The notes beneath the pieces are model-generated. The model was given only the letters and a program-made list of their open reading frames with translations. It ran no database searches and was not told the DNA's origin. A program made the position numbers and the translations under genes. 64,000 bases of DNA from Acidobacteriaceae bacterium (GTDB taxonomy: Bacteria; Acidobacteriota; Terriglobia; Terriglobales; Acidobacteriaceae). Of the stretch, positions 41,089 through 46,693 are shown one piece after another (position 1 is the first letter of the stretch; each line of letters starts with the position of its first letter). The stretch covers positions 45,236 through 109,235 of the forward strand of contig JASHRF010000107.1 of the NCBI GenBank assembly GCA_030037545.1, read 5' to 3'.

Positions 41089-41322
41089 GGCTACACGTAT
41101 AGCACAGTCGCGCGCAGTTGGCGGCGCATTCGGAAGTGCAACAGCGCCAAAGCGCTCTGCGATCGATAACGGACGCGAAGACGGAGGGAGGGTCCAAGCC
41201 CCTTTGCCTTTGAGAGGAAATCCACGTTCTTCTTCCGGCTTCTAACCCGCCTTCAAATTCCGGCCCTGAAATCCACTGGGGCAACCTGCTAAAATCGATT
41301 GAATCCACTCCTCGGAGCGGCG

Positions 41323-42474
41323 ATGCAGGCGATCCTGGCGCTCGAAGACGGGCGCATCTTCCGCGGCCTCGGCTACGGCCATCCTGGCGAATGCCAGGGC
41401 GAAGTCGTTTTTAATACTTCCCTTACCGGTTACCAGGAAATTGCGACCGACCCGTCGTACGCGGGTCAGATTGTCGTCCTCACCAATCCCCAAATTGGGA
41501 ACTACGGCACCAACCGCGCTGATAACGAAGCGGCCAAGCCCTACATCGAGGGCCTGATCGTGCGCGAGTTCTCGGCCATCAGCTCCAACTGGCGCTCCGA
41601 GCAGGTGACCGACGAGTACATGGAGCGGTACAGGGTTCCGGTCCTGGCGGAGATCGATACGCGCGCGCTGGTGCGCCACCTGCGCACTTATGGCGTGATG
41701 CGGGGGGTGATTTCGACGATCTGCCTGGACGCCGATGAGCTGGTGGCCAAGGCGCGCAGCATTCGGAAGATGGACGGGACCGATCTGGCCAAGGTGGTTT
41801 CGACGGCGTCGATCTACCAGATGGACCCGAGCGATCCGCGCAGCCAGTTGAACGATCCGCTGCTGGCCTCGTGTCTTGACCAGACGGCCGAGGCGCGCGA
41901 GCGGCGGCTCAATGTGGTTGCTTTCGATTTCGGAATCAAGCAGAACATCCTGCGCATCCTGTGCCGCGAGAATTGCAAGGTGACGGTGGTTCCGGCGGAG
42001 ACCACTGCGGAAGACGTGCTGGCCATGAAGCCCGACGGCGTTTTCCTGTCCAACGGGCCGGGCGATCCGGAGCCGGTGGACTACGCGGTGCGCGCCATCC
42101 GCAACATGATTGGCCGCGTGCCGGTGTTTGGAATTTGTTTGGGCCATCAGCTCACCGGCCTGGCGCTGGGCGGGCGGACGTACAAGCTCAAATTCGGGCA
42201 TCATGGCGGCAATCATCCGGTGCGCAACAATACCACCGGCAAGGTGGAGATCACGGCGCACAATCACAATTTTGCCGTCGATCCGGATTCGATCAACACG
42301 AATGAGGTAGAGCTGACGCATGTGGACCTGAACGATCAGACGCTCGAGGGCCTGCGCCACAAGACGCTGCCGCTGTTCAGCGTACAGTATCATCCCGAAG
42401 CCGCGCCGGGCCCGCATGACTCGCATTACCTGTTCCGCGACTTCCGCCAGATGATGGAGGAGTGGAAGGGATGA
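41323..42474 (+). CDS. carA: Carbamoyl-phosphate synthase small subunit
   Basis: Glutamine amidotransferase subunit, 383 residues from ATG 41323 (the track starts at a TTG 8 codons earlier). It has [14 protein letters not shown] and [11 protein letters not shown] at the start, and the class I triad: Cys in GICLGHQ, His and Glu in QYHPEA. It supplies ammonia to CarB for pyrimidine and arginine synthesis. carB follows but is separated by 695 bp holding a RAYT and its REP elements. Confidence 0.96.
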
Positions 42475-42552: not shown

Positions 42553-42626
42553 GTTTTGAATGGGCACGGCTTCAGCCGCGCCGCCACTGGAGCACAGGAA
42601 TCCGCGGCTTTAGCCGCTGAGGGATA
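42553..42626 (-). repeat. REP/BIME copy 1, reverse orientation, upstream of RAYT
   Basis: Two palindromic units, GGCACGGCTTCAGCCGCGCC and GCGGCTTTAGCCGC, preceded by GTTTTGAA. It is the reverse complement of the pattern (CCCTCAGGGGCTAAAGCCC - spacer - GGCACGGCTGAAGCC - CCCTTTCAAAAC) found in the other copies, so the RAYT is flanked by inverted elements. Confidence 0.85.
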
Positions 42627-42629
42627 GTT

Positions 42630-43151
42630 TTGAAACCCGCGCGCGAGCACGCAACCAACAACTCGCAAACCTACTTCATCACGTCGGACACGTGGGAACG
42701 GCGTGCTCTGTTCCGAGTAGAGCCCTGGGCAAGACTGTTCTTCAAAAACCTTCTCGCACATCGCGGCAAGGCCTATCTCCTGCACGAATTCGTCTTGATG
42801 CCGGATCATTTCCATTTACTGCTGTCCCCGAGAGTTGCTCTCGAACGCGCCATCCAACTCATCAAGGGCGGTTTTTCATTCCGAGTCAAAAAAGAGCTGG
42901 GATTTAATGGCGAGGTTTGGCATCGAGGTTTTTCCGATCATCGCATTCGCGATGCGGAAGATTACGACCTTCATCTCCATTACATTCATTTGAATCCGGT
43001 GAAGAAGCATTTGTGCAGCGCTCCAGCCGAATATCCCTATTCGTCCGCATATCCCGGTTGGAAGCTGGACCCCCTCCCTCAGGGGCTAAAGCCCCTCGGT
43101 AACGGGCCGGCTTATGGCACGACTAAAGTCGTGCCCTTTCAAAACAGGTAA
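42630..43151 (+). CDS. REP-associated tyrosine transposase (RAYT, Y1/HUH)
   Basis: 173-residue TnpA_REP-type single-strand transposase of the IS200-like Y1 superfamily. The HUH motif is MPDHFHLLL. The catalytic Tyr lies in DLHLHYIHLNPVKKHL, with GEVWHRGFSDHRIRD between. These enzymes cut and move REP palindromes. It lies between carA and carB and is flanked by REP elements in opposite orientation. Its start is a TTG; an alternative start further in is possible. The last 25 or so residues (PQGLKP ... VVPFQNR) are translated from the downstream REP element itself, so the natural C-terminus may have been shorter. Confidence 0.9.
   Translation: MKPAREHATNNSQTYFITSDTWERRALFRVEPWARLFFKNLLAHRGKAYLLHEFVLMPDHFHLLLSPRVALERAIQLIKGGFSFRVKKELGFNGEVWHRGFSDHRIRDAEDYDLHLHYIHLNPVKKHLCSAPAEYPYSSAYPGWKLDPLPQGLKPLGNGPAYGTTKVVPFQNR
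43076..43145 (+). repeat. REP/BIME copy 2, downstream of RAYT (overlaps its 3' end)
   Basis: Left unit CCCTCAGGGGCTAAAGCCCC, a spacer, then GGCACGACTAAAGTCGTGCC with compensating changes (ACT/AGT) that keep the stem, ending CCCTTTCAAAAC. The compensating bases show that the palindrome is under structural selection. Confidence 0.88.
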
Positions 43152-43169: not shown

Positions 43170-46100
43170 ATGCCACGCAGAAATGACATTCAGAAGATCC
43201 TGGTGATCGGCTCGGGGCCGATCGTGATTGGGCAGTCGGCGGAGTTCGACTATTCCGGCACGCAGGCCTGCAAGGCCCTCAAGCAGGAGGGCTACGAGGT
43301 GGTGCTGGTCAATTCCAATCCGGCCACCATCATGACCGATCCGGAGCTCGCCGACCGCACTTATATCGAGCCGCTCACACGCGAGTATGTGGAAGAGATC
43401 ATCCGCATTGAGGCGGAGATGCTTTCCAATGCGGCTGGCGACGCCCCTCAGGGGCTAAAGCCCGCACACTCTGGTTGGGCGTCGAGCGGCACGGCTGAAG
43501 CCGCGCCCTTTCAAAACAAAAAAACAGGCAAGTTCGCGCTGCTGCCCACAGTCGGGGGACAGACGGCGCTCAATCTGGCCGTCGATCTTGCCGATGCGGG
43601 AATTCTCGATCGCTATAACGTGGAGCTAATCGGCGCCAAGCTCGAAGCTATCAAGAAGGCGGAAGACCGGCTGCTGTTCAAAGACGCGATGATCCGGATT
43701 GGCCTCGATGTGCCCAAGTCCGCGCTGGTGAACAATGTTCGCGACGGCCTGGATTTTGCGGGCAAGATTGGATTTCCGGTGCTCGTCCGGCCCAGCTTTA
43801 CGCTGGGCGGCACGGGCGGCGGCATTGGCTACAACCGCGAAGAACTGCTGGAGATTCTGGCGCGCGGCCTCGATCTTTCGCCGGTGCATGAATGCCTTAT
43901 CGAAGAGAGCATCCTGGGCTGGAAAGAATTCGAGCTGGAGGTGATGAGGGACCTCGCCGACAATGTCATCATTATTTGTTCCATCGAAAATTTCGATCCC
44001 ATGGGCGTCCACACGGGCGACTCGATTACCGTGGCGCCGGCGCAGACGCTTACCGACCGCGAATACCAGAAGATGCGCGACGCGGCCATTGCCGTGATGC
44101 GCGAGATCGGCGTGGAGACGGGCGGATCGAATGTGCAGTTTGCGATCAACCCGCAGGACGGCCGCATGGTGGTGATTGAGATGAACCCGCGCGTCTCGCG
44201 CTCGTCGGCGCTGGCTTCGAAGGCCACCGGGTTTCCGATCGCGAAGATTGCGGCCAAGCTGGCCGTGGGCTACACACTCGACGAAATTCCCAACGATATT
44301 ACGCGCAAGACGCCAGCCTGCTTTGAGCCCACCATCGATTACGTAGTGGTGAAGATTCCCAAGTGGCAGTTTGAGAAATTTCCGGGCGCCGACGACACGC
44401 TGGGGCCGCAGATGAAGTCGGTGGGCGAGGTGATGGCCATTGGGCGCACCTTCAAGGAAGCGCTGATGAAGGCGTGGCGCTCGCTGGAGACCGGCAAGAA
44501 GACGGGCGCGGAGGTGGTGCTGGAGGAGCGGCGGCTGACGCAGATGCTGGTGACGCCGCGGCCGGAGCGGCTGGCCTATATGCGGTTCGCCTTCGAGCGT
44601 GGCATGAGCGTGCGCGAAGTGGCGCGGCTGACGCGCATGGACCCGTGGTTTCTGCACCAACTGCGCGAGATAACTGAGGCGCAGGGCACGATTGCGCAGA
44701 CCGCGCCGAAGGACATGGACGCGGAGCATTTGCGCCGCTTGAAGCGCATGGGCCTGAGCGACGAACGCATTGCGACGGAGTGGAAGCTCGAAGGCCACGA
44801 AGGCACCAGGCAGGTGAGGGAACTGCGCGAAGGGCAGGGAATCAGGCCGGTTTTCAAGCTGGTGGACACCTGCGCGGCGGAATTCGAATCGATGACGCCG
44901 TATCTCTATTCGACTTACGACGAAGAGGACGAAGCGGCGCCAACCGCAAAGCCGAAGATCATCATTCTCGGCTCGGGACCGAACCGCATCGGGCAGGGAA
45001 TTGAGTTCGATTACTGCTGCTGCCATGCAGCTTTTGCGCTCAAGAACGACGGTTACGAGACCATCATGGTCAACTGCAATCCGGAGACGGTGTCGACGGA
45101 TTACGACACCAGCGACCGGCTCTACTTTGAGCCGCTGACGCTCGAAGACGTGCTCGCGGTGTACAGCCACGAAGCGCAATCGGGTGCGAAAATCGGCATG
45201 ATTGTCCAGTTCGGCGGACAGACGCCGCTTAACCTGGCGCAGCGGCTGCGTGCAGCCGGTGTGCCCATCATCGGAACGTCGCCGGAGTCGATCGATCTGG
45301 CCGAAGACCGCAAGCAGTTCGGCAGATTGCTTGAAGAACTGAAGATTCCACAGCCGCGCGGCGGCACTGCGACAAGCGTGAGTGCGGCGCTGGCCGTGGG
45401 CGAACAGATTGGCTACCCGGTGCTGGTGCGGCCCAGCTATGTGCTGGGCGGACGGGCGATGGTGATCGCTTACGATGCCGATGCGGTTACGCGCTACATG
45501 CGCGAGGCGGTGGAGTACTCACAAGAGCGGCCGGTGCTGATCGATCACTTCCTTGAGAACGCGGTCGAAGTGGATGTCGATGCGCTGTGCGATTCGGAAG
45601 ATGTGCTGATTGCCGGCATCATGCAACACATTGAGGAGGCCGGGATTCACTCCGGCGATTCGTCGTGCGTGCTGCCCGCAGTCGGCATAAAGGACGAGAC
45701 GCTGGAGATGCTGCGCGCCTACACGCGCAAGCTGGCCCTGGCGCTCAAGGTGGTGGGGCTGGTCAATATACAGTTCGCCATCCAACGCGACGCGGAGGGC
45801 AACGACAATGTGTATGTGATCGAGGTGAATCCGCGCGCCTCGCGCACCGTGCCCTACGTTTCAAAGGCCACGGGCGTGCCGCTGGCAAAAATTGCCGCGC
45901 GGCTGATGACGGGCCGCAAGCTGCGCGAGCTGTTACCGAGGCAGGTCGCCAGCGGCAAGGATCTTGACGTGGGCTCGCACTATTACGTCAAGTCGCCGGT
46001 GTTTCCATGGTCGAAGTTTGCGGGAGTAGATACGGTGCTGGGGCCGGAGATGAAGTCCACCGGCGAAGTGATGGGCGTGGCGGCCAGCTTCGGCGAAGCG

Positions 46101-46550
46101 TTCGCAAAAGCGCAGCTCTCGGCCGGACAGATTCTGCCCACCGGCGGAACGGTTTTCTTTACGGTCAACGACCACGATAAGCCGGCCGCCATTCAACTGG
46201 CGCGCCGCTATATGAACCTGGGCTTCAAGATCGTGGCTACGCAGGGCACGGCCAACGTGCTGGAGGGCGCGGGGATGAGCGTGGAGCGCGTGTTCAAAGT
46301 GATGGAAGGGCGGCCGAACGCCGTGGACCTGATCAAGGGCGAGCGCATCCAGCTCATCATCAATACGCCACATGGGCAGGACGCAATCTTCGACGAGAAG
46401 CCGATCCGGCGCGCGGCGGTGCTGGCGCGGGTTCCGACGATCACCACGCTGGCTGCGGCGCAGGCGGCGGCGGAAGGAATTGCGGCCATGCAGCGGCATC
46501 GCACAACAGTGTTCGCGCTGCAGGAACTGCATAAGGCAAATGGGCGATGA
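43170..46550 (+). CDS. carB: Carbamoyl-phosphate synthase large subunit with an in-frame REP insertion
   Basis: Makes carbamoyl phosphate from bicarbonate, ATP and CarA-derived ammonia. 1126 residues against 1073 in E. coli. Both halves are intact: [19 protein letters not shown] and [19 protein letters not shown], two ATP-grasp domains ([34 protein letters not shown]), the oligomerisation domain and the MGS-like allosteric domain. Residues 92-116 (43443-43517) are encoded by a REP/BIME element. Flanking extra residues lengthen the insertion to about 35 between EIIRIEAEM and [13 protein letters not shown]. The frame is kept, so the enzyme is probably active. A second source of extra length is near 44930 ([12 protein letters not shown] linker). 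Confidence 0.95.
43443..43517 (+). repeat. REP/BIME copy 3, inside the carB coding sequence
   Basis: 75 bp (exactly 25 codons): GCCCCTCAGGGGCTAAAGCCC, a 25-nt spacer, then GGCACGGCTGAAGCCGCGCC and CTTTCAAAAC. It has the same two-unit architecture as copies 2 and 4. It is read as APQGLKP ... [10 protein letters not shown] with no stop codon. Confidence 0.92.
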
Positions 46551-46596: not shown

Positions 46597-46667
46597 TCCC
46601 TCGGGGGCTGAAGCCCACAATTGCACCTGGTCTATATGGCACGGCTGAAGCCGTGCCCCTTCAAAAC
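46597..46667 (+). repeat. REP/BIME copy 4, after carB
   Basis: TCCCTCGGGGGCTGAAGCCC, a spacer, then GGCACGGCTGAAGCCGTGCCCC and TTCAAAAC. Same orientation as copies 2 and 3. It lies in the gap between carB and a convergent membrane-protein gene and may serve as terminator. Confidence 0.88.
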
Positions 46668-46693
46668 CCGATTTATGCAGCCAGTTTTGGCAA

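Follow-up and report, generated by a model that had tools for sequence, protein, structure and literature searches.

In the car operon of Acidobacteriota, a gene for a REP-associated tyrosine transposase (RAYT) resides between carA and carB, and its coding region runs through the REP element at its 3' end. Spacing and substitution patterns indicate that at this position the DNA element and its open frame have been kept, while the peptide encoded by the spacer of the repeat was free to change. Conservation concerns the reading frame at this single locus and does not extend to the repeat family. The explanation regarded as best, with a probability of about 0.5, is that REP and RAYT are passed on together as one unit, and that the car operon retains the open frame because it lets ribosomes traverse the REP hairpins and arrive at carB.

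The locus was analysed in a stretch of 64,000 nucleotides, hereafter the window, from an Acidobacteriaceae bacterium (Table 1). The RAYT ORF (42630-43151) starts with TTG, measures 173 aa and ends with ...YPGWKLDPLPQGLKPLGNGPAYGTTKVVPFQNR*. The protein matches the Pfam Y1_Tnp domain (E 7e-6), and the top PDB match of its predicted fold (E 1.2e-8) is 4er8, a REP-associated tyrosine transposase in complex with a REP hairpin. Both the HUH motif and the catalytic tyrosine are recognised, H60-x-H62 being invariant and Y118 nearly invariant among RAYT homologues. The genome hosts one copy of the gene, plus one paralogue at 47% identity; in relatives the gene is stably found at the same position between carA and carB. 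Inverted REPs mark both sides of the RAYT (inverted repeats I2 and I3), as is the case for L002, the second RAYT of the genome. The unit in the window is a single-copy, vertically inherited RAYT with two flanking inverted REPs, placed between carA and carB. Its likely TTG start directly adjoins the outer boundary of the inverted REP on the 5' side (42625-42635), and REPs therefore touch both gene ends.

Table 1. Genes and REP copies at the car locus, in window coordinates
Feature	Position	Strand	Remarks
carA (carbamoyl-phosphate synthase small subunit)	41299..42474	+	ORF; used as query for carA, which was detected 5' of the RAYT in most car loci
REP copy 1, inverted, 5' of RAYT	42553..42625	-	Inverted repeats I2/I3; palindrome spacing 1 base longer than in copy 2, frame 0 closed
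RAYT (Y1 HUH transposase, REP-associated), REP-encoded C-terminal tail included	42630..43151	+	
REP copy 2, translated as PQGLKPLGNGPAYGTTKVVPFQN, the RAYT C-terminus	43077..43145	+	
REP copy 2, first palindrome AGGGGCTAAAGCCCCT	43081..43096	+	
REP copy 2, second palindrome GGCACGACTAAAGTCGTGCC	43116..43135	+	Followed by CTTTCAAAAC
RAYT stop codon TAA	43149..43151	+	18 nt 5' of the carB ATG, in frame with carB
carB (carbamoyl-phosphate synthase large subunit)	43170..46550	+	Pfam CPSase domains
REP copy 3, within carB	43445..43517	+	RAYT-tail frame; apart from L111, not seen in other CarB sequences
REP copy 4, 3' of carB, not in a gene	46597..46668	+	Frame 0 open

REP copy 2 consists of a first palindrome, a spacer and a second palindrome. 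The palindromes are flanked 5' by CCCTCAG or by the spacer, 3' by the spacer or by CCCTTTCAAAAC, and the RNA is predicted to fold at -29.7 kcal/mol (z -3.06). The last RAYT codons (CCT CAG GGG CTA AAG CCC ... GGC ACG ACT AAA GTC GTG CCC TTT CAA AAC AGG TAA) span the repeat, and both palindromes are therefore translated; a single TAA plus 18 nt lie between the RAYT and carB in the same frame. A preliminary description of this DNA had equated the last ~25 codons of the RAYT (43073-43151) with REP copy 2, which is accurate down to the coordinates, and had also recognised that the RAYT tail and an insert in CarB are read from one REP frame (PQGLKP...PFQN, frame 0). Its statement that copies 2 and 3 are stop-free in this frame holds, and applies to copy 4 as well. 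Copy 1 is closed in frame 0, because its spacing, one base longer, brings in the TGA of the second palindrome. In the first palindrome, CTAAAG supplies a TAA that closes frame +1. The second palindrome carries CTRAAG, and its TAA or TGA falls in frame +2 at in-phase spacing (37 or 40 nt between centres), in frame 0 when the spacing is one base longer. Openness of frame 0 versus frame +2 is governed mainly by spacer length modulo 3. The single open frame is the geometry of the element, and selection is not needed for that alone. The GT[AG]G head of GTAG-class repeats was not seen at the stem foot in any of the REP copies read directly. A comparison of the REP with Rfam gave no match, and no terminator-like site was found on its coding strand.

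A scan of named genomes yielded 80 homologous RAYT loci, all from Acidobacteriota. carB is located 3' of the RAYT in 47 of them, mostly with carA 5' (carA-RAYT-carB). RAYTs adjacent to car genes pass both palindromes in 46 of 48 cases, the window included, non-car RAYTs in 9 of the 27 classified; these counts omit rows in which no REP could be recognised, and a handful of borderline rows were classified by visual inspection. The two exceptions at car, L124 and L131, are from Acidiferrales-type genomes and have out-of-phase spacing. Non-car RAYTs which also read through include L084, L094, L095, L121, L122 and L125; the remaining ones mostly stop inside the REP (RHG*, AAKAA*) or just before it, and L002 ends at a TAA inside its own REP. 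Orthologues at the car locus do not terminate at a conserved stop ahead of the REP, a pattern that would have spoken against the preliminary description. The overlap of RAYT and REP is not due to chance, because it is found again in dozens of homologues. In a near one-per-genus sample of 50 car loci, a RAYT precedes carB in 13, and the REP is read through in all 13. The tree is poorly resolved; on it, the car RAYTs show strong clustering. A phylogenetic test of the link between car position and read-through counted 5 independent pairs, a mean of 2.1 in the expected direction versus 0.3, with a median p of 0.5; with so few pairs the test is underpowered, and the corrected link is not significant. 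The centre of the first palindrome is placed 36 nt past domain residue 140 in most loci, which denotes a fixed junction.

Palindromes at car are spaced in phase in 35 of the 37 measurable loci, at 37 nt (28 loci) or 40 nt (7 loci), the rest being L124 and L131. Six further car loci feature a second palindrome with a 5-nt centre, 1 nt longer, combined with a spacer that measures 20 or 23 nt rather than 21; the longer centre is offset by the change of the spacer, and the frame is thus restored in all six. Among the other car rows the tree requires at least 9 changes of REP configuration, all in phase. Out-of-phase spacings (35, 38, 39, 42, 44) do occur in other RAYTs. The pN/pS ratio is 0.18 in the RAYT domain and 0.87 in the REP spacer, and the palindromes hardly vary even at synonymous sites (pS 0.12-0.14), being conserved as DNA. 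Residues K154, P155, G163, P169 and Q171, all encoded by the stems, are invariant among 18 car sequences. In the AlphaFold model, which was built on a shallow alignment of 18 sequences, pLDDT is >90 for most of the core and <50 for residues 158-173, and the tail is probably an unstructured appendage. A conserved tail peptide was ruled out by the pN/pS values and by the low confidence of the model in the tail.

Openness of the REP frame was also measured across the genome, in a 1.12 Mb sample made mostly of larger contigs. It includes 51 two-palindrome REPs sorted into 20 sequence clusters, and the repeat is thus present in many dispersed copies; contigs were picked partly for REP hits, which may inflate REP density but should leave frames unbiased. 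Frame 0 is open in 26 of the 51 copies, frame +2 in 19, frame +1 in 2. By cluster, RAYT and CarB copies being omitted, frame 0 is open in 7/18, versus 6.1 expected from shuffles of the loop (spacer) (p = 0.39), and frame +2 in 12/18, that is, no less often than frame 0. In-phase spacing is found in 6/18 clusters genome-wide. The REP family overall is not selected to be translatable, and depletion of stops throughout the repeats in the PQGLKP frame was rejected on both the 51 copies and the 18 clusters. Nearly half of the REP copies of the genome (G000), distributed over many contigs (e.g. L004-L023), belong to one near-identical subfamily, which sits within an outer inverted repeat, TTTCATAACCC...GGGTTATGAAA, and looks like a recent amplification.

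The insert in CarB (24 residues) corresponds to REP copy 3, and is missing in the CarB of G124, a genome of the same genus. Among 65 distinct CarB sequences, only 3 have a long loop at this site, and in L101 the loop is something other than a REP. In the window and in L111 (PMYL01000059.1), which are from distantly related genomes, a REP is inserted in the same N-terminal loop of CarB and in the same frame.

RAYT stops are located from -40 to +35 nt from the carB ATG in 36 of 47 loci, and from -8 to +10 in 23 of 47. Stop and start exactly abut in 9 loci, and overlap as TAATG in 5. When sequences were scanned from the REP end, a stop no more than 6 nt from the start of carB was found in the RAYT frame in 19 of 39 loci, and in each other frame in 2 of 39. 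These junction counts are not independent, as related sequences share some RAYT-carB junctions. The interval from -8 to +10 nt has been used to predict termination-reinitiation, and a distance of ~20 nt nearly abolishes coupling (PMC10666635). About half of the car loci miss this range, among them the window (+18 nt). In RAYT-less relatives, carA and carB are often separated by hundreds of nt, and TAATG at the carB start is seen there too; coupling therefore cannot be essential, and the position of the stop may be partly inherited.

The favoured reading starts from the observation that the 3' REP begins at a fixed distance past the catalytic domain, and that translation enters it in the sole sense frame left open by both palindromes at in-phase spacing. 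In the car operon this frame has been maintained over evolution with the encoded peptide left free, as the in-phase spacing changes and the pN/pS values show. The likely reason would be that ribosomes on the RAYT have to cross the REP hairpins, terminating at or very near the carB start, and this crossing could shield carB from polarity and permit its translation by termination-reinitiation. Quite possibly, though, all this is a neutral by-product of architecture and descent: the ancestor was in phase by chance, the tail was inherited, and the stop was supplied by the pre-existing carA-carB junction. The fixed distance from domain to REP, the clustering of car RAYTs on the tree, the non-car RAYTs which read through, TAATG at carB starts without a RAYT, and the tail of L040, which took over a carA-type stop (EEWKG*), would all follow from neutral descent; the in-phase configuration changes at car, compensated 1-nt shifts included, would not, given how few clusters are in phase genome-wide and that other RAYTs do carry out-of-phase spacings. 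A stronger form of the favoured reading is tentative, and less likely than not: the domesticated transposase unit would be a working spacer of a core operon, with a tail free in sequence and translatable only to bring ribosomes to carB, and one lineage would perhaps have an in-frame RAYT-CarB fusion.

Two further explanations concern the peptide and the repeat. A role of the REP-encoded tail in the function of the RAYT protein, for example as an extension binding DNA or a partner, would fit its presence in most close homologues and the five invariant residues; these are dictated, however, by the conserved DNA of the palindromes, the spacer peptide is near-neutral, the tail is predicted to be disordered and non-car RAYTs often end within the REP, all of which makes a functional tail unlikely. 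The preliminary description had suggested that the REP itself may be tuned to be harmless when translated. Copies 2, 3 and 4 are open in one frame, and the second CarB insertion, in L111, uses the same frame; genomic copies, however, commonly have stops in this frame (about half are closed), the number of open clusters is close to the shuffled expectation, frame +2 is no more rarely open, and copies inside genes are open through survivorship. Selection for harmless repeats is refuted for this genome, and very improbable as a general account.

The unit resembles the REPtrons formed by RAYT (TnpA-REP) genes (PMC2817692, PMC6006769), with which it shares a Y1 HUH protein, two inverted flanking REPs, many genomic REPs and a fixed position in relatives. 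It differs from them in having a two-palindrome repeat with no GT[AG]G head, in drawing the C-terminal codons of the gene from the 3' REP, and in lying within the carAB operon. Stable single-copy RAYTs have already been described (PMC2817692), as have REP insertions within tnpA-REP genes of subclass 2.4 (PMC2817692, PMC6006769). Tyrosine transposase genes that are overlapped by REPs or inverted repeats, or that contain insertions of them, are known (PMC6006769, PMC3733652). PMC3733652 further reports TIRYTs, a group of tyrosine transposases from several Acidobacteria with inverted repeats on either side, and notes repeats which overlap the ends of the transposase gene (3'ov); GTAG REPs which often provide the stop codon of the preceding ORF; and palindromic repeats residing in frame in protein-coding genes, Rickettsia palindromic elements (RPEs) included. 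The likeness of the RAYT in the window to acidobacterial TIRYTs is in taxon and architecture; the passages of PMC3733652 consulted do not treat operon position, reading frame, homologue series or stop position relative to carB. Copy 3 in CarB is of the same kind as REPs inside ORFs and RPEs, whereas copy 2 is part of the RAYT gene itself, and dozens of orthologues preserve its frame. Termination-reinitiation of overlapping genes (PMC6728339, PMC10666635) has in common with the car loci the TAATG/TGATG overlaps, the zero-distance RAYT-carB junctions, and the fact that the products of carA and carB are subunits of a single complex; unlike known coupled pairs, the upstream partner is derived from a transposase and has a repeat-encoded tail, and its coupling to carB is putative. 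Among open-licence papers on RAYTs with carAB or in Acidobacteria, no account of this locus was found.

How and why hosts keep RAYT genes is an open question (PMC6006769). Here one RAYT position is found in many genera, in a core biosynthetic operon, with REP stems evolving as DNA and the spacer as stop-free filler. The locus allows a concrete test of whether the RAYT frame is kept because its loss or a frameshift would disturb carB. It also advises caution: an open frame through a repeat should not be taken to show that the peptide is functional or that the repeats as a whole are tuned.

The carA-carB junction looks like an insertion hotspot. Across genera (L202-L251) it varies from overlap to ~1.4 kb, often with other sequence in between. 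In L063 (genome G124) the RAYT has no remaining stop, and its ORF runs into CarB as deposited. This fusion was set aside, as it hinges on a run of 7 C in a contig with a coverage of 3.29 in its name, and 6 C would give a TAG before carB; an error of sequencing or assembly may be responsible. The 3' end of carA is duplicated 3' of the RAYT and REP in L040, L104 and L114. The RAYT tail of L040 ends in EEWKG*, which is the duplicated CarA C-terminus, and suggests that the unit either inserted into the end of carA or duplicated it. A general origin of RAYT stops from a duplicated carA end was rejected, such ends being found only in L040 and L104 (in another frame), with a weaker trace in L114. In L251 a REP of the same type lies just 5' of carB, though no RAYT was detected, which is consistent with RAYT loss.
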